Part shown: piece after piece, positions 14,236 through 50,739 of the stretch | Layout of the letters: each line of letters begins with the position of its first letter | How positions within the stretch are numbered: position 1 is the first letter of the stretch | The notes under the pieces: generated by a model | Seen by the model: only the letters and a program-made list of their open reading frames with translations | Told to the model about the DNA's origin: nothing | Databases searched by the model: none | Source of the DNA: a virus | Virus record (IMG/VR): IMGVR_UViG_3300025641_000013 | Location: 1-50,739 of that record | Length of the DNA stretch: 50,739 nucleotides | Strand: one strand, 5' to 3' | Made by a program: the position numbers and the translations under genes

Positions 14236-16773
14236 CTAAGCCTGTGTTTGACCCGTTGATGCGGCTCTTTTCTGTGCGTCATCTGCTGGTCTAGGTGTGC
14301 TTCTTAAAGGCTGTGGTATTCCCCTCTTACCGCCACCACCGCTAGGCGTAGAGCTAGGAGTAGATGTTAATGAAGAAGATGGTGAGCCGCTAGGGGTGTT
14401 GTTTAATACCTCTGTTTCTGCGTTTGTGTTCATACTTGTTTTTATCAAGTCTTGGTCTACTTCACCCTTTAAAACAGTTCCTAATCTTACTTCTCCTGCT
14501 TTTACTTTCTCTAACTCAGCCTTAAATTGATACTCAGTTTGCATTTTTTGCATAGCGAAACTATGCTCTATTTTCATTAATTCTAAGTCTGCTGCTTTTG
14601 CCGCTTGATTACTTTGAATCTGAATTTGACCATTAGCTTGCTGTAATTCAATAGAGCGTTGGTGCGCCTTCTGCATAAACTTGTCTGCCGCTCTAGCTAG
14701 ATATTCGTTAGCTGCTTTATAGCTTCCCGCTTCTAATACCTCTCTTGACCTATTAGCTTCTGCCACTGATATTTGCCCTTGTTGTATCGCAATTTTAACA
14801 GACTCTTCAAACAATGCTTTTTGTTGTTCTGACGGCTTAAACTTAATTGATATGCCTAATTCAGCATTTGTAAGTTCTTTACTTGCTTTAAGCACCTCTA
14901 CTCGCAAGCTACCCATAGCCATTTTATAGCCGTTAACTTTTATGCCTCTAGCTATATTATGCTTAATCATTAAGGCTATCCTATCTGATGTACGCTCTAT
15001 GATATTAGTGTATGCGTCTGTAAGTTGTTTTGTTGCGGAGTTATAAGCAGATTCTCTCTTTTCTTCTACGCCTACTAATGCGCCTTTAGCTGCTGCTGTT
15101 CCATCTATTGTAGGGTTAATACCACTCACTTGATACATTTGAGATACCCAATGATTGTATATGCCTACTAATCTCTCTACGTCTGATGATAATCCGTTTT
15201 CTAATTCTTTTATAGGTGGTTGACCCGTTAGTGTTTGAGGTCTACCATTCTTATCGTGAGAGCGGTAGTATATTCTACCCGTCTTATCGTAAATCTCTGC
15301 TAGTCCCTTATCGTCTACCAAACCGCTACCCATTCCAGATGTAACCCCTTGTAGGGCGGAAATATCTATTGCAACGTTCTTTGGTCTTGCCTGACTAATT
15401 AAGTGCTGTATCTTTTGCTCTATATTAATCATTTGACGTACATAAGGAATCATTGATTCAGTCATCCCTTGACTCATAGTATCTTGTACGTTAGGCGTGT
15501 AGAACACTAAGTCAAATTCTGCATTAGTGTCAATTACCTTGTCCTTAATGCGTCTTACTATGTCGTTTTTCTTTTTGTACCCGAAACATTTATTTGTATC
15601 ACATACTAAGTAGCCTTCGTAAATGTCTATAACAGACTTTCTGATTACTTCTGTTACGCCTCTTTTCTTAACTTTCTTTCCTTCTTCATCCTCGTAATAC
15701 TCTGTGTAATTACTAGGTACTTTATCAAATGATACGCTATTTCCCTTCTTAGACTTTTTCTCTCTCCATACCTTGTGGTTTTCAGACTTGAATTGCCCAA
15801 ACATAACAAGAACATTAAAGTTATCATATTCATTTGAAGTTATCCCTTCTTGGTAGTAAGAACCAAATGACCAACTCTGATTAGATACGCTTCCTTTATT
15901 TCCTGCATATCTCTTTGCTATGTCAAATAGTTCTGATTCTGATAACTCTCCGTTTGAACGTTGTCTTAGTTCATTTATAGTCATCTCTAGCACTATGCCT
16001 ACATAGGTTGCGTCTGATGCGTCTGGCTTAGTGAAATAAGAGTATATTAAGTTTTTTCTGTCTATTGCTTCTGTTATAATGTTACCGTTTCTATCGAACC
16101 TAGTCCAAGTTCCTGCGCTGTCTAAAACGTGCAAATCCCTTGATATAGTTTTCTTTATTTCCTCGAAACTATTGTTTGCGTAAACATATCGTATTCCATT
16201 TTCAATAGACTCTTCTTCTTCTGTTTTCCAATTTAATTCTGCATCAAATTGTACTTCGTCTATTGTGTCTGGAGCGTCTTTTACCTCTTCTTTTATCTTG
16301 TCTAAGCCCGATGTGTCTTGACCTTGCGCTTCCATCTTAGCGATAGCGGCTTTAATCTTAACCTTACCGAACATCTCTTTCATTCGGTTATCTAACTTAT
16401 CTGTGCTGTCTTTGTCTATTGCCGTAGCAATTACATCGTAAGGTCTGTCTATTAGCTTGTTAGAAGAAATGTTGATTAGGTTCTTTAATACCCCTGCTGC
16501 TGCGGGAGTGAAATCTTTAGATAATAATGATGTATTACCATCTTCTAAAGTATCTCTGTCTTTATACTCCTCAATTGAAGGCGTACCCATAGCAAAGTTC
16601 CGTAAAGTAACAAACTTCTTTCTTTGGTCGAAAAAGTTATTAGCATCATTACTATGCTCACCCCACATAGCCCTAAGATAAGCTAGACCATACTCTCGTG
16701 TAGCTTTCTTCTCTTCAGAATCAAATGGGTTTGGGAATCCTCTAAAGGATTTTTGAGCTTTTATATTATCCAA
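14236..16773 (-). CDS. Portal protein, probable TTG start
   Basis: The 845-residue protein directly follows the terminase gene, and its size and helix-rich make-up fit portals of Bacteroidota podoviruses. The C-terminal 120 residues are a long Gln/Lys/Glu-rich helix followed by a Ser/Pro/Gly-rich tail (SGSPSSSLTSTPSS). The first initiation codon in the open frame is TTG at 16771-16773. No in-frame ATG lies between the TATCTTTG box (16793-16800) and there, and the next ATG would remove over 30 residues. The portal forms the dodecameric channel through which DNA enters and leaves the head. Assignment is by context and size. Confidence 0.75.
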   Translation of the reverse strand: MDNIKAQKSFRGFPNPFDSEEKKATREYGLAYLRAMWGEHSNDANNFFDQRKKFVTLRNFAMGTPSIEEYKDRDTLEDGNTSLLSKDFTPAAAGVLKNLINISSNKLIDRPYDVIATAIDKDSTDKLDNRMKEMFGKVKIKAAIAKMEAQGQDTSGLDKIKEEVKDAPDTIDEVQFDAELNWKTEEEESIENGIRYVYANNSFEEIKKTISRDLHVLDSAGTWTRFDRNGNIITEAIDRKNLIYSYFTKPDASDATYVGIVLEMTINELRQRSNGELSESELFDIAKRYAGNKGSVSNQSWSFGSYYQEGITSNEYDNFNVLVMFGQFKSENHKVWREKKSKKGNSVSFDKVPSNYTEYYEDEEGKKVKKRGVTEVIRKSVIDIYEGYLVCDTNKCFGYKKKNDIVRRIKDKVIDTNAEFDLVFYTPNVQDTMSQGMTESMIPYVRQMINIEQKIQHLISQARPKNVAIDISALQGVTSGMGSGLVDDKGLAEIYDKTGRIYYRSHDKNGRPQTLTGQPPIKELENGLSSDVERLVGIYNHWVSQMYQVSGINPTIDGTAAAKGALVGVEEKRESAYNSATKQLTDAYTNIIERTSDRIALMIKHNIARGIKVNGYKMAMGSLRVEVLKASKELTNAELGISIKFKPSEQQKALFEESVKIAIQQGQISVAEANRSREVLEAGSYKAANEYLARAADKFMQKAHQRSIELQQANGQIQIQSNQAAKAADLELMKIEHSFAMQKMQTEYQFKAELEKVKAGEVRLGTVLKGEVDQDLIKTSMNTNAETEVLNNTPSGSPSSSLTSTPSSTPSGGGGKRGIPQPLRSTPRPADDAQKRAASTGQTQA

Positions 16774-16828: not shown

Positions 16829-19800
16829 TTATTTAACCTTATATATTTTATGAAAACTCATTACATTAAAGTCTGCGGGAGCTGATAATTCTGACGTATC
16901 TATATTCATTCTACTCATTTTACACGCTAGTATTGCTATCATATATGCCACCGTTGCATCGTAGGGAGTCCAATTGTCTACCTCGAAATCTTGTAAATCT
17001 TCTATTAGGTTAGGGAATGGCATTGAGCCGTAAGCAGGGCTACCCGTTTGGTCTAATTCAATATAACCTATATCATCTACAATATGCGCTCTAGTAACGT
17101 TTACTAGGTTCTCTCGTATTCCTCCATTAGTTGCGTTATAAAAGCCTCTCTCTTTAAACTTTTTCTTTTGGTCTTTCTCTAGTTCGTTGTACATTAAGTA
17201 TTCTTCACATCGTTTATTCTCGAAATGACGAATCAATACTGACCCTGCGTTATTCTCTACGAACACTCTAGCTGAATAGAATACAGCCATCATTCTCATA
17301 TCCTCTGCAAAATCCGTTGGGTGGTCTTGTCTGTATAGATATTCGCATACAGCTTTAGGTGTTTTATTTCCCATATAACCTATATCAAGAACTGCGTAAG
17401 CTGCGTTATCAGAGCCGCTTCCTACTACGGGTGCTTTAAGGTTTGTAGGGTCAATGCCTATTCTAACGTGTTCTCTTGTTGGTTCTCTACCGTATTCTGA
17501 TATTCTGTATTGGTTTCTATCTTCTGTTGGCGGCATCCATGCAACAGTCCATCTACCGTTTTCCTTGTCTTCTTGAAAGCCTACTTCGTTTTCTTCTCCG
17601 TTTTTCCAATAGAAGTTACCTCGTCTGTTTTCTGCGTAAATACCTTCATCTTCGTTATATTGTGATTGCTGCTGTATCTTAGCTAACGCCCAAGGACTTG
17701 CTGTTGATTCCATTAACCACATATCAGATTCTCTTAATGGATATTTCCTTCTGTATGATATAAGCTCAGAGCCACTTAATCTAGCCATTTCAGCTTCGTG
17801 AAACCTTCTAGCGTACTCTCTGTCTGAATACCCCCACTCATCAACCTTATACCCGTAATCAGCAGGTATAAAGAGTTTTCTTAATCCACTTATAGTTCTA
17901 CCAAGTAAAGGGTCTAATGTCTTAACATTTGAGTTATCCCAAATCTTTTTAAATCTAGCACCCCCAAATCTCTCCATATCCTCTACGGTTGTAGTATGCA
18001 AGGACTTACCTACCACCTTATCCCTAGACATAAAGCATTTAGAGTTTACCTCCCAACGCTCATCTACTTCTGCTACACCTTTCTCTACCTTTCCTTCCTC
18101 ATCGTAGTACCCAAATCTAAACCCTAATCCATCTTGAGCCATATTGTTAGCGGGGAACGGCTTAATCCAAGAGTCTAATACATATTGGTATTCCTTTACT
18201 TCGCCCTTAGAACTTTTCTTTTGTGGTGCGGTAAAATATATAGCGTTACTTCTTTTTGTTTCACCCGTATCAATAGGCTTAAAGAAGTCTGGTAGACGTT
18301 GCCAAGATTCTTGTATTTTTAAGAATACCTCTACGGCATCTTTATTTGTTTTAGATTGTATAGCGCACTTAGCACCCTCTAACATCATTGCTGTTGTATA
18401 GCATATAGCCCCGCCAACAGATGTATTATGTGTTACAGTATATGATTTTCCAGCTAAATATAAGCTATTCTTAGAATCCACTGATATGCACTTCACAGGC
18501 TTACTGTCTATTACCTCTATCTTTTCTATGCTTTTTACAAACCTTCTTTTAGATTTAGGGTAGTGCCATCTCTCTGACTTTCTTTTTAATCGAAATGGAT
18601 TGAACTTAGTCATTGTGTTTATACGGTAAACCTCGCATCTATACATAGAGTCATCACTACGTCTCATTGTAGCTATCTTAGTTTCAATTACACATTTTTC
18701 GCCTAAAGACCTTAAAACTTCCGCTATATCATCCGATAAGGCTTTGCTTTTCTGTGTAATTTCAATACTCTTTCCGTTTTTCCCTATACTCCCATCCGAG
18801 TCCATTAATCCCCTAATAAGTTCTTGGCGCTGACTTATTGATGAGTGTTTATATATTTCTGGTATTTTTTTGCTTCTATCGTCTGCACTATTCTTTTTTA
18901 TGAATCCAAGTTTCTTTAGTTTAGAAAGCATCCCATCTGTTGCGGTGAATTGACCTAATTTATTAGTGGATTTATACGTCCCAAGAAGCGTTACCTCATA
19001 ATCTGTTCTGCATTTTTTTGAAACATAATTTATTCCTAAATCATCTAAATATTCAGTTATATTATGTAAATCAAGTTCTCCACAATGTATCTTAGAGTTA
19101 TACGAACCCCCGTCTCCTAACCAATATCCAAAAAGATAAGGGTCTATTGGTAAATTCTTGTACTTATATTCGGTGGGTTTTGATATTTTTATATGAAAGT
19201 TCCTTTCACGACTATAAACCATTAGTGGCATCTGCTTCATTTGCTTTGTGGTTAAAACATCTGAACTTCCTTTGTTTTTTTTACCCCTTCCTCTACGACA
19301 GTTATATGTCATTACTTCCCATTGGTGGTCATCGTCTGCATCCAAGTAAGTGCCATCATCAAACCACACTCGATTAACAACCCTTTCCACTTGAAGTCCT
19401 GTAACGTAAGTGATATTGCAAGGCTTACCATTCTCATCAAATACCTTATCACCAACCTCTAAGTCTTTCATTTTCACGAATCCGTTAGGAGTTGGAATAT
19501 CTGTATCTACACATAGAGCTTTCCCGAATCTTCTACAAGTCCCCCAAACCGCACCCAATGAACTTTTGTCCTTCTCTGTACAATCCCAATGGTAGAAGGT
19601 ATCTCTCTGTGCATCAATGAAATCTGGAGTTGTGTATGTGCCATCATTAACGGATGGTATTATCCACCATTGAAGCATAAAGTAATGCTTACCCGTTACA
19701 TATTCTAGTTGGTTGCCATTATAGAAGTGTATGCCCTCGTCTAGCCTTCGCTGTTCTTCTGCTACAAATTCTATTAATTCGCTTTCGGATAGCGTGTCTA

Positions 19801-19987
19801 TTATATCCCTATCGTGTAGCGGAAACTTTCTATCATCCTTCTCTAAACCAAAATTAAATACATCGCCAACATCTGGCGGGTCGGGTCTTACATAATCATA
19901 GTCACCTACTCGTATGTTTGTTTGGAAATCATAGTAAATTTCGTGACATTCCTCTATGCCCTTACTTGTCTTTTCTTTGTTGGGCAT
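16829..19987 (-). CDS. terL: Large terminase subunit (TerL) interrupted by an intein
   Basis: The 1052-residue precursor is about 689 residues of terminase plus an intein at 159-521. Before the intein comes the P-loop GTCRRFGKAL, which joins TSVGG after splicing. The ATPase continues with a likely motif III (SLHTTTVED, about 662). The C-terminal RNase-H-like nuclease has its acidic residues at D846 (RIGIDPTN), E911 (VFVENNAG) and D1010 (PYDATVAY). TerL pumps DNA into the prohead through the portal and cuts concatemers. The gene overlaps the upstream 112-residue gene by 26 bp. Confidence 0.92.
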   Translation of the reverse strand: MPNKEKTSKGIEECHEIYYDFQTNIRVGDYDYVRPDPPDVGDVFNFGLEKDDRKFPLHDRDIIDTLSESELIEFVAEEQRRLDEGIHFYNGNQLEYVTGKHYFMLQWWIIPSVNDGTYTTPDFIDAQRDTFYHWDCTEKDKSSLGAVWGTCRRFGKALCVDTDIPTPNGFVKMKDLEVGDKVFDENGKPCNITYVTGLQVERVVNRVWFDDGTYLDADDDHQWEVMTYNCRRGRGKKNKGSSDVLTTKQMKQMPLMVYSRERNFHIKISKPTEYKYKNLPIDPYLFGYWLGDGGSYNSKIHCGELDLHNITEYLDDLGINYVSKKCRTDYEVTLLGTYKSTNKLGQFTATDGMLSKLKKLGFIKKNSADDRSKKIPEIYKHSSISQRQELIRGLMDSDGSIGKNGKSIEITQKSKALSDDIAEVLRSLGEKCVIETKIATMRRSDDSMYRCEVYRINTMTKFNPFRLKRKSERWHYPKSKRRFVKSIEKIEVIDSKPVKCISVDSKNSLYLAGKSYTVTHNTSVGGAICYTTAMMLEGAKCAIQSKTNKDAVEVFLKIQESWQRLPDFFKPIDTGETKRSNAIYFTAPQKKSSKGEVKEYQYVLDSWIKPFPANNMAQDGLGFRFGYYDEEGKVEKGVAEVDERWEVNSKCFMSRDKVVGKSLHTTTVEDMERFGGARFKKIWDNSNVKTLDPLLGRTISGLRKLFIPADYGYKVDEWGYSDREYARRFHEAEMARLSGSELISYRRKYPLRESDMWLMESTASPWALAKIQQQSQYNEDEGIYAENRRGNFYWKNGEENEVGFQEDKENGRWTVAWMPPTEDRNQYRISEYGREPTREHVRIGIDPTNLKAPVVGSGSDNAAYAVLDIGYMGNKTPKAVCEYLYRQDHPTDFAEDMRMMAVFYSARVFVENNAGSVLIRHFENKRCEEYLMYNELEKDQKKKFKERGFYNATNGGIRENLVNVTRAHIVDDIGYIELDQTGSPAYGSMPFPNLIEDLQDFEVDNWTPYDATVAYMIAILACKMSRMNIDTSELSAPADFNVMSFHKIYKVK
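18425..19513 (-). mobile_element. Intein with LAGLIDADG homing endonuclease in the TerL P-loop
   Basis: Precursor residues 159-521 (363 residues) form a complete intein. Splice block A starts at C159 (CVDTDIPTPNGFVKMKDL) and a block-B-like segment is near DADDDHQWEV. Two LAGLIDADG helices are present: LFGYWLGDGGS (285-295) and LIRGLMDSDGS (390-400). The C-terminal splice block ends SYTVTHN with N521, followed by extein T522. All splicing residues (first Cys, penultimate His, last Asn, +1 Thr) and both endonuclease acidic residues are present, so it looks active for splicing and homing. P-loop insertion is a common intein site because the coding DNA is strongly conserved. Confidence 0.95.
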
Positions 19988-20300
19988 AGAACTCTGGTTT
20001 TAATTCGCTTGGTTTTAATCTAGCCCTCTTTGCTCTAGCTAGTTCTGTTGGGTCAATCTTTTTTTCTAGGTCGTAGATTAAGTCTGTTAGCTTTTGAACT
20101 TTATCTCCCCACTTAATAAACTCATTAAATTCATCGGAATCTTGACCGAATACAATGGGAGTGTTTTCTATTTGAGAAGTAATATCATCTACTTGCTTCT
20201 TCATAGATATATAAACATTCAGTAGAGGGCTATCGAATACCTTTTTCAATATCCGTTTAGCCTCTACCAAATCAAGTTTATCTATGTCCTTATTCTTCAT
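19962..20300 (-). CDS. Small helical protein upstream of TerL
   Basis: The 112-residue, highly charged, alpha-helical protein has heptad-like spacing (about residues 30-90) and a basic C-terminus (LARAKRARLKP). Its stop lies inside the start of terL and its own start overlaps the previous stop (ATGA), so it is in a tight coupled operon. A small terminase subunit often occupies this spot, but I see no DNA-binding motif. That role is only a possibility. Confidence 0.5.
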   Translation of the reverse strand: MKNKDIDKLDLVEAKRILKKVFDSPLLNVYISMKKQVDDITSQIENTPIVFGQDSDEFNEFIKWGDKVQKLTDLIYDLEKKIDPTELARAKRARLKPSELKPEFYAQQRKDK

Positions 20301-21130
20301 AATTCTGCTAGTACGTTAGCTTCTTTTACAGCGTAATACTTGTTGCCGTTAAACTCAAATGAGTTATACCCTCGCTTCATATAAATAAGCTGCGTGTCTT
20401 TCTTATATGCGTTTGAATATACTACCTTACCTAAGCCTTTTGTTACCTTTTCTTTTCTAGGTAAATAAATGCCGTTAAAGTCCACCCACTCTTCGTCATC
20501 ATCCATAGCTTCCATTATAATCCAATCACCAAAAGAAATCAATTCATCCCCATTGATTACAGCAAAAATATAGCTAGAATGTGTGAATATAACATCCTTA
20601 CCGTCTACTTGCATCCACTCACCTTCAAATTGGTCTGATGGATAGTCGTTATCCTCTGCGTAGATTATGGTATCACCTTTCTTTAAGCCGTAGCAATCAA
20701 TTACGATTATACCCCTGTCATTAGGCTGCTCTACGGTTTGCGGAATATATATACCGCTATCGGTAGTTTCTTTCTTAGGCAGTTTCTTAATACCTACAAA
20801 ACCATTCGTAGGCACTTCGTTTATCGCTCTTACATACTGAACGTATTCTGAGTCTCGTAAAAGATAATAGAATATACCTTTTTCAGTTGTACCATTCCAA
20901 TCTTCGCTAGAAAACTTTCTGTCATCTAGCCAACACATTCTATGGTCAAACCAAATCTTACCGTTAAGTTCTACATCTAACTTTGTTGAGTTTTCTACGA
21001 CAATGCCATCGTGTGTCATATGCTTACCCTCGTGACCCCAATTAGAGTCGATTATAAGCCCGTTTAACATATTAGCCTTATCATCGTCTACTTTTACAGC
21101 GATGTAGTTTAAAATGCCTCCTTTAAGCAT
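20297..21130 (-). CDS. Protein with apparently three tandem GroES-like (co-chaperonin) domains
   Basis: The 277 residues appear to hold three GroES-like barrels in a row, about residues 7-103, 110-192 and 199-277. Domain 2 follows GroES closely: VGIKKLPKKETTDSGIYIP (strand plus mobile loop with hydrophobic I-Y-I), then RGIIVIDC and LKKGDTIIYAED. Domain 3 repeats this with GDWIIME, GIYLP, GKVVYSN and a C-terminal KYYAVKEANVLAEL like the GroES end. Domain 1 is more divergent. Phage co-chaperonins such as T4 gp31 cap host GroEL to fold the coat protein, and a role in capsid folding fits the position before terminase and portal. GroES chains normally carry one domain. Confidence 0.7.
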   Translation of the reverse strand: MLKGGILNYIAVKVDDDKANMLNGLIIDSNWGHEGKHMTHDGIVVENSTKLDVELNGKIWFDHRMCWLDDRKFSSEDWNGTTEKGIFYYLLRDSEYVQYVRAINEVPTNGFVGIKKLPKKETTDSGIYIPQTVEQPNDRGIIVIDCYGLKKGDTIIYAEDNDYPSDQFEGEWMQVDGKDVIFTHSSYIFAVINGDELISFGDWIIMEAMDDDEEWVDFNGIYLPRKEKVTKGLGKVVYSNAYKKDTQLIYMKRGYNSFEFNGNKYYAVKEANVLAEL

Positions 21131-21952: not shown

Positions 21953-22273
21953 TTATTTTTTAACTATTTTTCTTTTCTTGGCTTTACCGCCTCTAGCGTT
22001 TTTATCGCCTTTTGTATCGCTCTTACTTCCCCTGTTAGCTTTTACGGACTTTAATCTTAGTCCGTTCTTTGTATGGCTTAAATCACCCGTATCTTTACTT
22101 ACAATGTTTCGCTTTCTTCTAGCTTTTGATAGTTCGGCTCTTTTTTTCTTTTGCTCAGGACGAGAATTTATCTCCTTATCCTTAGCCGCCTTAACCCTTC
22201 TAGCTTTTTTAGAATTTCTGTAATACTTTGCGCTATCACTTAATTGGCTATATGGTTTCTTTCTTGGTGCGAT
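21953..22273 (-). CDS. Conserved basic phage protein with apparent ATC start codon
   Basis: An open frame of 106 residues reads (M)APRKKPYSQLSDSAKYYR and continues through Lys/Arg-rich helices (PEQKKKRAELSKARRKR) to SHTKNG, NRGSKSDTKGDKNARGG and a basic tail. This order is typical of a small basic protein seen in many podoviruses. No ATG, GTG or TTG lies at the 5' end, and the frame is closed by TGA about 26 bp upstream. The only fitting start is ATC at 22271-22273, exactly 4 nt after the TATCTTTG box. That is the spacing at which several other genes here have ATG. The opposite-strand reading is a hydrophobic shadow. Confidence 0.6.
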   Translation of the reverse strand: MAPRKKPYSQLSDSAKYYRNSKKARRVKAAKDKEINSRPEQKKKRAELSKARRKRNIVSKDTGDLSHTKNGLRLKSVKANRGSKSDTKGDKNARGGKAKKRKIVKK

Positions 22274-22277
22274 GCTA

Positions 22278-22285
22278 CAAAGATA
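22278..22285 (-). promoter_or_regulatory. TATCTTTG -7 box before the ATC-start gene
   Basis: Minus-strand match to TAnnTTTG, followed by 4 nt and then the ATC codon. The same box-to-start spacing occurs at 26.17, 26.47, 28.51, 49.53 and 50.46 kb. Confidence 0.6.
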
Positions 22286-22290
22286 ATACT

Positions 22291-22485
22291 TTATTCATAA
22301 GGACATATTTCTTTATAAAACTCCTCGTCTATTTCTTTGATAGCTTTCTCTAGTCTATCCTTCTCTAAAATAGACTGCTTTATCTCGTGTTTTGTAGCCG
22401 TTTTACCTAAATCGGATGCTATGTGCATTTCGTGTAATAAAGCGTCTATATCCTCTCTATCTTGGTCGTCTGTATAATATCCCAT
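22291..22485 (-). CDS. Small acidic helical protein
   Basis: The 64-residue protein is rich in Asp, Glu and Lys (MGYYTDDQDREDIDALLHEM) and predicted fully helical. Its ATG overlaps the preceding stop (TAATG), so it is coupled to the gene at 22485-22838. No domain recognised. Confidence 0.5.
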   Translation of the reverse strand: MGYYTDDQDREDIDALLHEMHIASDLGKTATKHEIKQSILEKDRLEKAIKEIDEEFYKEICPYE

Positions 22486-22838
22486 TATCTAAATAGTTTT
22501 TGTGCTGTCTGATTATTTAACCTTACTTTTATTCCGTGTGCTAAACACATTGACCTAAATTCCTCTATGTCTTGCGGAAATGGAATTACAATATCATCTC
22601 CTATTATAATTTCAGTTGGGTATATATAGTCGTTTAAATCTTTTGAGTATTCAATGCAAGGAATATATGCTATGCCATCTCCGTTCTTTTCTTCTCGCAA
22701 AGTTCCTTCAGCTAAATGACGCATCACTGTATCTGAATCAAAAGCATCGCAATAAACGGATGTTATAGATATAAGTTGCTCTTTGAATAGCGGATTATTA
22801 GGTCTTAACCGATTTAACATTTTACTTAACGAATCCAT
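22485..22838 (-). CDS. Unknown protein, start set by promoter position
   Basis: From the ATG at 22836-22838 the product is 117 residues (MDSLSKMLNRLRPNNPLF). An upstream in-frame GTG at 22866-22868 shares its first G with the TATATTTG box and would lie before the transcription start, so I reject it. The protein is mixed alpha/beta with several acidic patches. Function not recognised. Confidence 0.5.
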   Translation of the reverse strand: MDSLSKMLNRLRPNNPLFKEQLISITSVYCDAFDSDTVMRHLAEGTLREEKNGDGIAYIPCIEYSKDLNDYIYPTEIIIGDDIVIPFPQDIEEFRSMCLAHGIKVRLNNQTAQKLFR

Positions 22839-22867
22839 TACTTGTACATTTTGTATTTTTGTTTCCA

Positions 22868-22875
22868 CAAATATA
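22868..22875 (-). promoter_or_regulatory. TATATTTG -7 box
   Basis: Exact TAnnTTTG match on the minus strand, 29 nt before the ATG at 22838. It lies in the 62-bp gap shared with the divergent plus-strand gene at 22901. Confidence 0.6.
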
Positions 22876-26153: not shown

Positions 26154-26161
26154 TATATTTG
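26154..26161 (+). promoter_or_regulatory. TATATTTG -7 box, 4 nt before an ATG
   Basis: Exact TAnnTTTG match ending 4 nt before the ATG at 26166. The transcript probably begins at or near the start codon. Confidence 0.6.
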
Positions 26162-26165
26162 ATAT

Positions 26166-26384
26166 ATGGAATTTTCACTATTTTTAAACAACGGAGAACA
26201 AATAAATATAAACACAGAAGATTATACAGACCCTACTAGAACGGTTATGGAATACCTTATATCAATGCTAGAATATTATGAAACAGAATTATCCTTCTGT
26301 GATGAAGAAAATGAATTACTGTTTCAGCAAGTGGAATACGGTAAACTACTTACTGATTTGTTGAAGCCAGAGATAAAGAATTAA
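26166..26384 (+). CDS. Small acidic early protein
   Basis: The 72-residue protein (MEFSLFLNNGEQININTE) is strongly acidic. Its central part resembles that of the gene at 26710: both have a V-x-x-x-(L/V)-x-S-M-L-(E/Y) helix, so the two may be distant paralogues. A short hairpin (AACGCA/TGCGTT, 26383-26404) begins at the stop codon. Confidence 0.5.
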   Translation: MEFSLFLNNGEQININTEDYTDPTRTVMEYLISMLEYYETELSFCDEENELLFQQVEYGKLLTDLLKPEIKN

Positions 26385-26455: not shown

Positions 26456-26463
26456 TACATTTG
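26456..26463 (+). promoter_or_regulatory. TACATTTG -7 box with upstream TTTTTAACATTAACG
   Basis: The box ends 4 nt before the ATG at 26468. A TTTTTAACA-type element lies about 20-25 nt upstream, in the place of a -33 element. A similar arrangement recurs at 34288. Confidence 0.6.
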
Positions 26464-26467
26464 AATT

Positions 26468-26647
26468 ATGGAAATAAAAACACTTGAATTATTTATAGAT
26501 GGAGATGCGTTTTGGTTTACGCTGCTATCTTTTGATTACAAAAACCAAAACAGAAGCCTTTTTCATATTGAATATGGATATGGATGCTTAAAATTTCAAT
26601 TTCTTTTTTTAAAAAATAACTGTTGGGTATATGATACAAATAGATAA
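26468..26647 (+). CDS. Small aromatic-rich early protein
   Basis: The 59-residue protein (MEIKTLELFIDGDAFWFT) is rich in Phe, Tyr and Trp and predicted to be beta strand, like a small single-domain fold. It has its own promoter box. No domain recognised. Confidence 0.5.
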   Translation: MEIKTLELFIDGDAFWFTLLSFDYKNQNRSLFHIEYGYGCLKFQFLFLKNNCWVYDTNR

Positions 26648-28498: not shown

Positions 28499-28506
28499 TA
28501 CATTTG
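28499..28506 (+). promoter_or_regulatory. TACATTTG -7 box, 4 nt before an ATG
   Basis: Matches TAnnTTTG. The AATT spacer and ATG are identical to those at 26468. Confidence 0.6.
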
Positions 28507-28510
28507 AATT

Positions 28511-28885
28511 ATGAAACTACACAAAGACATATTATACTCCGTAGGAGATGAAATTGAGATAGATAACATTAAATACACCATAGAACTCGCAGGATGGGGT
28601 AAAATACGACTACATAAGAAATGCTGTGTTGATATGTCCGCTGTCAAAGAAGTAGATGACGTAACAGCTATACGGGGCTTAGATATAATAATAGCACTTA
28701 ATGAAGAAGGTGCTACTGAAGAGGTAGAGGAAATTAAAAATAACTTAGAATGTCATTTTAATGAAATTGAGTGTAAATTTAAATCTGAAGAATCTAACCT
28801 TAATGACAAAATCCGCATATTAGAAGCGCAGAATAAAGATTTAAAGAATGAACTAGAGGATGGTAAGTCTTGGTGGATATGGTAG
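28511..28885 (+). CDS. Unknown protein with C-terminal coiled coil
   Basis: The 124-residue protein has a small beta-rich N-terminal half (MKLHKDILYSVGDEIEID) and a long Glu/Lys/Leu/Asn helix (about residues 74-118) with heptad spacing, ending KSWWIW. Oligomerisation through the coiled coil is likely. No function recognised. Confidence 0.5.
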   Translation: MKLHKDILYSVGDEIEIDNIKYTIELAGWGKIRLHKKCCVDMSAVKEVDDVTAIRGLDIIIALNEEGATEEVEEIKNNLECHFNEIECKFKSEESNLNDKIRILEAQNKDLKNELEDGKSWWIW

Positions 28886-49491: not shown

Positions 49492-49523
49492 AAAGAGCCT
49501 TTGCTATGTAGAGGCTCTTTTTA
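49492..49523 (+). terminator. Intrinsic terminator ending the replication module
   Basis: AAAGAGCCT pairs perfectly with AGGCTCTTT (9 bp, 11-nt loop) and is followed by T. Its T run merges with the next promoter box at 49522. Confidence 0.88.
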
Positions 49524-49529
49524 TATTTG
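49522..49529 (+). promoter_or_regulatory. TATATTTG -7 box directly after a terminator
   Basis: Exact TAnnTTTG match that shares bases with the terminator tail and ends 4 nt before the ATG at 49534. Confidence 0.62.
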
Positions 49530-49533
49530 TGCT

Positions 49534-49770
49534 ATGAAAGAATTTAATATTGAAGATGCTCTTTGCCCAGAAAGGGATAAGTTAATCATTGAAGGGGAAA
49601 TTATTACCGCTAAAATAGTGGATGCAGAGTTAGACGTTATAGATTGTACGTTTCATAATGACGGTTGCGTACAAGTAGAAACTAAAGACTATGCTTATTT
49701 AACTCTAACAAGAGGAAACTTAGAAATGCTTTTATGGTTGGTTGATGAAGCAGAATTAGAAATTATTTAA
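49534..49770 (+). CDS. Small acidic protein
   Basis: The 78-residue protein (MKEFNIEDALCPERDKLI) is acidic and beta-rich in the middle. The start at 49534 is fixed by the promoter 4 nt upstream; an earlier in-frame ATG lies inside the terminator. No domain recognised. Confidence 0.5.
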   Translation: MKEFNIEDALCPERDKLIIEGEIITAKIVDAELDVIDCTFHNDGCVQVETKDYAYLTLTRGNLEMLLWLVDEAELEII

Positions 49771-50442: not shown

Positions 50443-50450
50443 TATATTTG
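50443..50450 (+). promoter_or_regulatory. TATATTTG -7 box, 4 nt before an ATG
   Basis: Exact TAnnTTTG match ending 4 nt before the ATG at 50455, again giving an almost leaderless transcript. Confidence 0.6.
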
Positions 50451-50454
50451 CGCA

Positions 50455-50739
50455 ATGAGAGATACAAAAGGTAGGTTTACTAAAGGTTATAATATGACAC
50501 CTGAAGAGAGGCTGAAAAAACATAGGTCAGCCGTAAACTCTTGGAAGAATAGAAGTGATTATATAGGTGACTTAAAGAAGCACCCTCTTTATAATAGTTG
50601 GAGGTATAAGTTTACTAAAAAAGGAAAGGCGATTGGATGGGACTCAAAATGGGATAAATTTAAAGATTTTTATAATGATGTCATTCCTTTTTACGAGGAA
50701 GGTAAAAAATTCTGTAGAAAAGATTTTTCTGATACATTT
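50455..50739 (+). CDS. AP2/HNH-type homing protein, partial (C-terminus outside window)
   Basis: The 95 visible residues start MRDTKGRFTKGYNMTPEER and include HPLYNSWRYKFTKKGKAIG followed by WDSKWDKFKDFYNDVIPFY. The L-Y-N-S/T-W-R then W-x-K-F-x-x-F pattern is that of AP2-containing HNH homing endonucleases. No nuclease residues can be judged because the gene runs off the edge. It has its own near-leaderless promoter. Confidence 0.6.
   Translation, partial: MRDTKGRFTKGYNMTPEERLKKHRSAVNSWKNRSDYIGDLKKHPLYNSWRYKFTKKGKAIGWDSKWDKFKDFYNDVIPFYEEGKKFCRKDFSDTF

Follow-up and report, generated by a model that had tools for sequence, protein, structure and literature searches.

We analysed a stretch of viral DNA of 50,739 nucleotides (the window) and found a conserved phage gene whose frame opens with ATC at the position that is ATG in part of its more distant relatives. 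The same ATC occurs in 4/4 contigs of the phage group, which represent three haplotypes (3/3) that are 5-8% apart. We regard the ATC start as a real and robust oddity, for which the mechanism described below is plausible. The reading that we favour, with modest confidence, is that this is a real gene of a crAss-like Bacteroidota phage in which ATG changed to ATC in the ancestor of the group, and that it would still be weakly translated from AUC by the host initiator tRNA. We advance more tentatively the wider proposal that Bacteroidota ribosomes may initiate on a 5'-terminal AUC, and that a leaderless start that is neither AUG nor NUG has persisted while the phage group diverged.

The ATC frame and its counterparts in related contigs

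The frame of 106 codons lies on the minus strand (21953..22273), from ATC at 22273-22271 to TAA at 21955-21953, and encodes a Lys/Arg-rich protein. A previous interpretation made from the letters alone (the sequence-only reading) had reported that the frame has no ATG, GTG or TTG to start from, and none is in fact present anywhere in it, at the 5' end or in the interior. Seven codons (ATA AAG TAT TAT CTT TGT AGC) separate the upstream in-frame stop TGA (22297-22295) from the ATC, which is the sole AUN or NUG codon of the frame ahead of codon 35. Upstream lie the box TATCTTTG (22278..22285, minus strand), a -7 element of the Bacteroidota sigma-A class (consensus TAHHTTTG; PMC6847099), and the 4-nt spacer TAGC (22274..22277, minus strand). 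The order of box (22285-22278), TAGC and ATC agrees with the earlier statement that the ATC stands 4 nt after a box, where the start belongs, and our alignments place this ATC (22271..22273, minus strand) at the homologous start. In this frame, then, no canonical start exists and the homologous start position is occupied by an AUN codon.

The product matched phrog_6437 (E 9.8e-13, 49.6 bits; residues 10-88 against model positions 2-82 of 86), confirming that it is of a type found in many phages. A PDB sequence search gave a best E of only 0.27. The AlphaFold model (pLDDT 77.7, pTM 0.51) suggests, with medium confidence, that the protein is mostly helical and has a single beta hairpin. Foldseek searches of PDB and BFVD with this model returned nothing at E <= 0.001, the best BFVD match being a 98-aa protein at 6.1e-3. 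Judging from its charge, our guess is that the protein binds nucleic acid.

The muzzle protein (PF25731, E 3.9e-9) marks the phage as crAss-like. Elsewhere in the window, residues 112-192 of a 277-aa protein (20297-21130, minus strand) form a co-chaperonin GroES (Cpn10) domain. When 10 contigs were tested, a relative was found in three, each of which belongs to this phage group. A terminase-like gene (16829-19987) is interrupted by an intein-like insert (18425-19513, minus strand; CVDTDIP...VTHN) that is in frame, 363 codons long and equipped with LAGLIDADG/Hom_end domains. The related contig G001 aligns without this insert, window positions 18427 and 19520 meeting at adjacent G001 bases, and the insert is thus present or absent among close relatives.

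The sequence TATCTTTGTAGCATCGCACC, which spans the box, TAGC and ATC, was identical in three IMG/VR contigs (G001, G002 and G003). These align to the window at 95.4% over 38.2 kb (G001), 95.4% over 38.2 kb (G002) and 92.5% over 33.4 kb (G003), and their copies of the protein are 99% (G001 and G002) and 94% (G003) identical to that of the window. G001 and G002 are ~99.5% alike, so that the four contigs count as three haplotypes. The sequence-only reading had offered a base-call error as the alternative to an ATC start. An error of base calling or assembly in place of ATG has a single point in its favour, that ATG is expected at that codon, and it is hardly credible, since three other contigs with different flanks carry ATC. 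Moreover, 12 viral-contig stretches matched TTTGTAGCATNGCACCAA, and the three that are this gene all have ATC (3/3); the other nine encode something unrelated, three of them with ATG. The identical ATC in independent related contigs effectively excludes a sequencing error. The proposed comparison of start codons in close relatives thus gave ATC in all three group contigs found, and of the earlier interpretation the homologous start position and the leaderless spacing stood while its error alternative fell.

Used as baits for further members of the group, the GroES-like gene and a 127-aa neighbour gene returned the same three contigs only. TerL as bait added one 4-kb fragment (L056), which starts inside TerL and therefore does not reach the ATC gene.

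Box spacing and the predicted mRNA

TAHHTTTG is the -7 element of the main Bacteroidota sigma factor, and in F. johnsoniae 4 or 5 nt lie between this element and the transcription start (PMC6847099). Such spacing predicts that transcription begins (+1) at the A of the ATC, and the mRNA would then start with 5'-AUC; the spacer would take positions -4 to -1 and stay untranscribed. The near-leaderless layout described earlier is supported by the spacing, and by the rule of Baez et al. the mRNA is predicted to be exactly leaderless. A box at 4-5 nt before the start codon is present in the sequence, the transcription start being predicted from it, but in place of a 5'-terminal AUG all four contigs have ATC.

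The same spacing had also been claimed for at least five other genes of the window. Five genes do carry a box 4 nt before ATG, all on the plus strand: TATATTTG-N4-ATG at 26154..26168, 49522..49536 and 50443..50457, and TACATTTG-N4-ATG at 26456..26470 and 28499..28513. What they have in common with the ATC frame, however, is the TAHHTTTG class (three TATATTTG, two TACATTTG) and not the exact TATCTTTG. Boxes of this class occur 56 times on both strands of the window (5.5e-4 per position), and chance is therefore unlikely to have placed one precisely 4 nt ahead of the codon that aligns with ATG in the relatives. We counted distances from box to first ATG in 940,605 bases of the window and fetched loci (543 unique boxes; frames of at least 50 codons; ATG only). 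The distances peaked sharply at 4 nt, with 16 sites (homologous copies in related contigs included) versus none at 3 nt and two at 5 nt, and formed a second broad hump from 15 nt onward. The separate peak suggests a distinct leaderless class in these phages, and the ATC frame shares the layout of that class.

Some other arrangements of box and start were observed in the same sequences. At G001:C1:62589 (minus strand), TATCTTTG-N4-ATG precedes a 218-codon Cys/Lys-rich frame that looks HNH-type by eye. In the window, an 845-aa gene (14236-16773, minus strand) has as its first canonical start a TTG ~19 nt after TATCTTTG, possibly a genuine TTG start. The mechanically assigned GTG start of the frame at 22485-22868 (minus strand) overlaps the -7 box TATATTTG, and an in-frame ATG ten codons downstream, with a short leader, is likelier.

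We then compared ATG and ATC after the box in viral contigs at large, phages of Bacteroidota being one part of them. Among the matches listed, a frame of at least 50 codons with a close upstream stop was present at 76 of 121 distinct TATATTTG-N4-ATGAAA sites and at 8 of 119 distinct TATATTTG-N4-ATCAAA sites. Frames with no further start within 20 codons numbered 33 for ATGAAA versus one for ATCAAA, again among the matches listed, and the product at this lone ATCAAA site (L148) looked random and unconvincing. A class of leaderless ATC genes was rejected on the ratio of 8/119 to 76/121 among these matches. As far as such counts predict, leaderless ATG is common and leaderless ATC essentially absent, and the ATC gene is an exception and not a member of a class. 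A scan by codon at 4 nt from the box, covering the window and the fetched loci, gave no other convincing start-less long frame. At L058 position 13242, a box-N4-ATA frame of 56 codons was considered as a further leaderless near-cognate gene and discarded, since there is an overlapping ATG in a different frame and the product, judged by eye, resembles a chance translation.

If the AUC is indeed used, RNA polymerase would begin on the A of the ATC and produce mainly an mRNA without a leader (5'-AUCGCACC...). Host ribosomes with the initiator tRNA would then decode AUC as a start at low frequency, and protein output would be low. The sequence-only reading had suggested that such a start might keep expression low, which is a possible but speculative purpose. 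In the fold predicted for the 5'-terminal 70 nt of this mRNA, nucleotides 1 to 34 are unpaired. Read-through mRNA from the upstream genes may present the same AUC to ribosomes as well, in this case behind a leader and with an A at -3, a base described as favourable for initiation in Bacteroidota. No tRNA gene was found in the window, G001, G003 (bar 144 bases), G004 and the last quarter of G002. Hence no phage-borne initiator tRNA was seen in the pieces scanned, and we rejected this candidate.

Conversely, the AUC might be a start on leadered read-through mRNA only, partly by termination-reinitiation, with the adjacent box not being the relevant promoter. The upstream genes are co-directional and the A at -3 would serve such an mRNA; in the window, a 64-aa gene (22291..22485, minus strand) ends 17 nt before the ATC, and an out-of-frame ATG frame of seven codons (MNKVLSL; 22275..22298, minus strand) ends with a TAG one base before it. 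However, the upstream flank of G001-G003 differs from that of the window by a ~110-bp indel (window 22286-22289 against L003:1890-1985). In these three contigs the stop of the upstream gene is ~110 nt more distant from the ATC, the small frame is absent from the alignment, and in G003 the ~110 bp missing from the window include, between the upstream gene and the box, a stable hairpin (z -2.8) that may be a terminator. An origin in read-through would also make the box and its spacing coincidental, and we consider it quite improbable.

Very improbable, in our view, is a start at an upstream out-of-frame ATG followed by a shift into the frame, or a start at an internal codon. An out-of-frame ATG does lie upstream, 25 nt from the ATC in the window and 17 nt in G001-G003, but the two are non-homologous and need opposite shifts (+1 and -1), for which reason frameshifting was rejected; that of G001-G003 also lies upstream of the box. 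Internally, AUN codons occur only from codon 35, and the conserved N-terminal third would be lost. A recoded stop was rejected as well, because the upstream in-frame stop is TGA in the window and TAA in G001-G003, and its recoding gives no shared start.

Origin of the ATC and selection on the frame

Although the ATC frame belongs to the same phrog_6437 family, an in-frame ATG was found in 46/46 listed relatives outside the group (22 + 24; near-duplicates included), and in each of three phage records checked. For the second round, 24 of 34 loci were examined, the other 10 being re-fetched loci already examined in the first. We aligned 29 sequences, 27 of them from outside the group (alignment A3; L015, L018, L102, L118, L119, L120 and near-duplicates left out). 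Seven of the 27 have ATG in the ATC column (L004, L098, L099, L100, L101, L103 and L112), and the N-termini correspond column for column (IAPRKKPYSQLSDSAKYYRN in the window versus MPPKKKPYSELSDSAKYYRN in L004). The other 20 start elsewhere, the N-terminus being variable in length. Over the first 14 bases, L103 and the window differ at one (ATGGCACCAAGAAA versus ATCGCACCAAGAAA), so that the simplest origin would be a change from G to C. On our best reading the ATC derives from an ATG, and the third base of the start codon would have changed in this way in the ancestor of the phage group. In bacterial genomes no relative was found, as none of 349 pattern matches was confirmed.

The box was also surveyed in 33 relatives, without near-duplicate loci and with an arbitrary choice of ATG for L015 and L018. 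It lies 17-35 nt before the chosen ATG in 15/33 and at 4 nt in 0/33, suggesting that the gene normally has a leader and that the leaderless layout seen here is unusual.

The main rival to a weakly translated gene is a silenced one: the start codon was lost in this phage group, and the frame has yet to decay. In its favour, ATC makes a very poor start, AUG is reported to be required on leaderless mRNAs in E. coli, and the known haplotypes are only three, with the distances given above. On the other hand, the frame is without stops or indels in all three haplotypes, and box, spacing and N-terminus are preserved exactly. Between the window and G001 we counted 4 synonymous and 2 nonsynonymous changes (path-averaged; dS 0.062, dN 0.008, ratio 0.13), and between the window and G003 7 synonymous and 12 nonsynonymous changes (ratio 0.45). 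Both ratios are inside the range of the other ORFs, for which finite dN/dS values ran from 0 to 0.94 (39 ORFs chosen from the list, the ATC frame included). The pair G001 and G003, in contrast, is near neutral (dN 0.045, dS 0.048, ratio ~0.95), as a silenced gene would be.

Simple codon counting gives 5 synonymous changes specific to the window and no more than 1 nonsynonymous one (P ~0.002 under neutrality if the changes are independent), and path-averaged counting (4 and 2) gives a weaker signal of selection. The synonymous changes of the window are clustered in codons 52-67, and 9 of the 12 changed bases in codons that differ nonsynonymously between G001 and G003 fall within codons 87-92 (G003 lineage). 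Such clustering in both lineages suggests recombined tracts and weakens the selection test. Both clusters may be tracts that were selected elsewhere, and under silencing they could be imports from intact alleles. Taken together, we think that the frame is likely to be still under selection and that silencing is rather unlikely.

Comparison with known initiation systems

The AUU of infC is the textbook non-canonical start. AUU, AUC and AUA are known as rare bacterial starts (PMC4611024, PMC9094748), against which IF3 discriminates (PMC4611024). Like these, the ATC frame has an AUN codon without third-position G at the start position; here, however, that codon is AUC, it has no visible Shine-Dalgarno sequence, and a leader is predicted to be missing altogether from the mRNA. 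In a study of 61,358 ancestral AUG starts, the changes listed were 363 to GUG, 113 to UUG, 2 to CUG and 1 to AUU, with none listed to AUC (PMC5622118). In openly accessible text on AUC/ATC starts or on leaderless non-AUG starts in phages and Bacteroidota, we recognised no natural leaderless AUC gene.

Initiation without Shine-Dalgarno sequences is poorly understood in Bacteroidota, and the common view of leaderless initiation is that AUG itself is recognised. A gene found in nature with a 5'-AUC and with ATG-started relatives would be a ready test of the leaderless AUG rule in this phylum. Furthermore, this conserved phage gene is missed by ORF callers that are limited to ATG, GTG and TTG.

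In F. psychrophilum, 5.5% of mapped mRNAs are reported as leaderless (PMC9723704). The ATC gene shares with leaderless mRNAs of Bacteroidota the 4-nt distance between TAHHTTTG box and start codon and the A at the predicted +1. It differs from the leaderless-type starts of these phages in its codon, since the 16 sites at 4 nt have ATG (the count sought ATG). For E. coli, leaderless mRNAs are described as needing AUG, for which GUG, UUG and CUG are no substitute (PMC4611024), and on our best reading an AUC start on a leaderless mRNA contradicts this rule. In mycobacteria, AUG or GUG is reported to suffice on leaderless mRNAs (PMC9094748). These mRNAs resemble the proposed ATC start in that they tolerate a codon other than AUG, but GUG keeps the third-position G and AUC does not.
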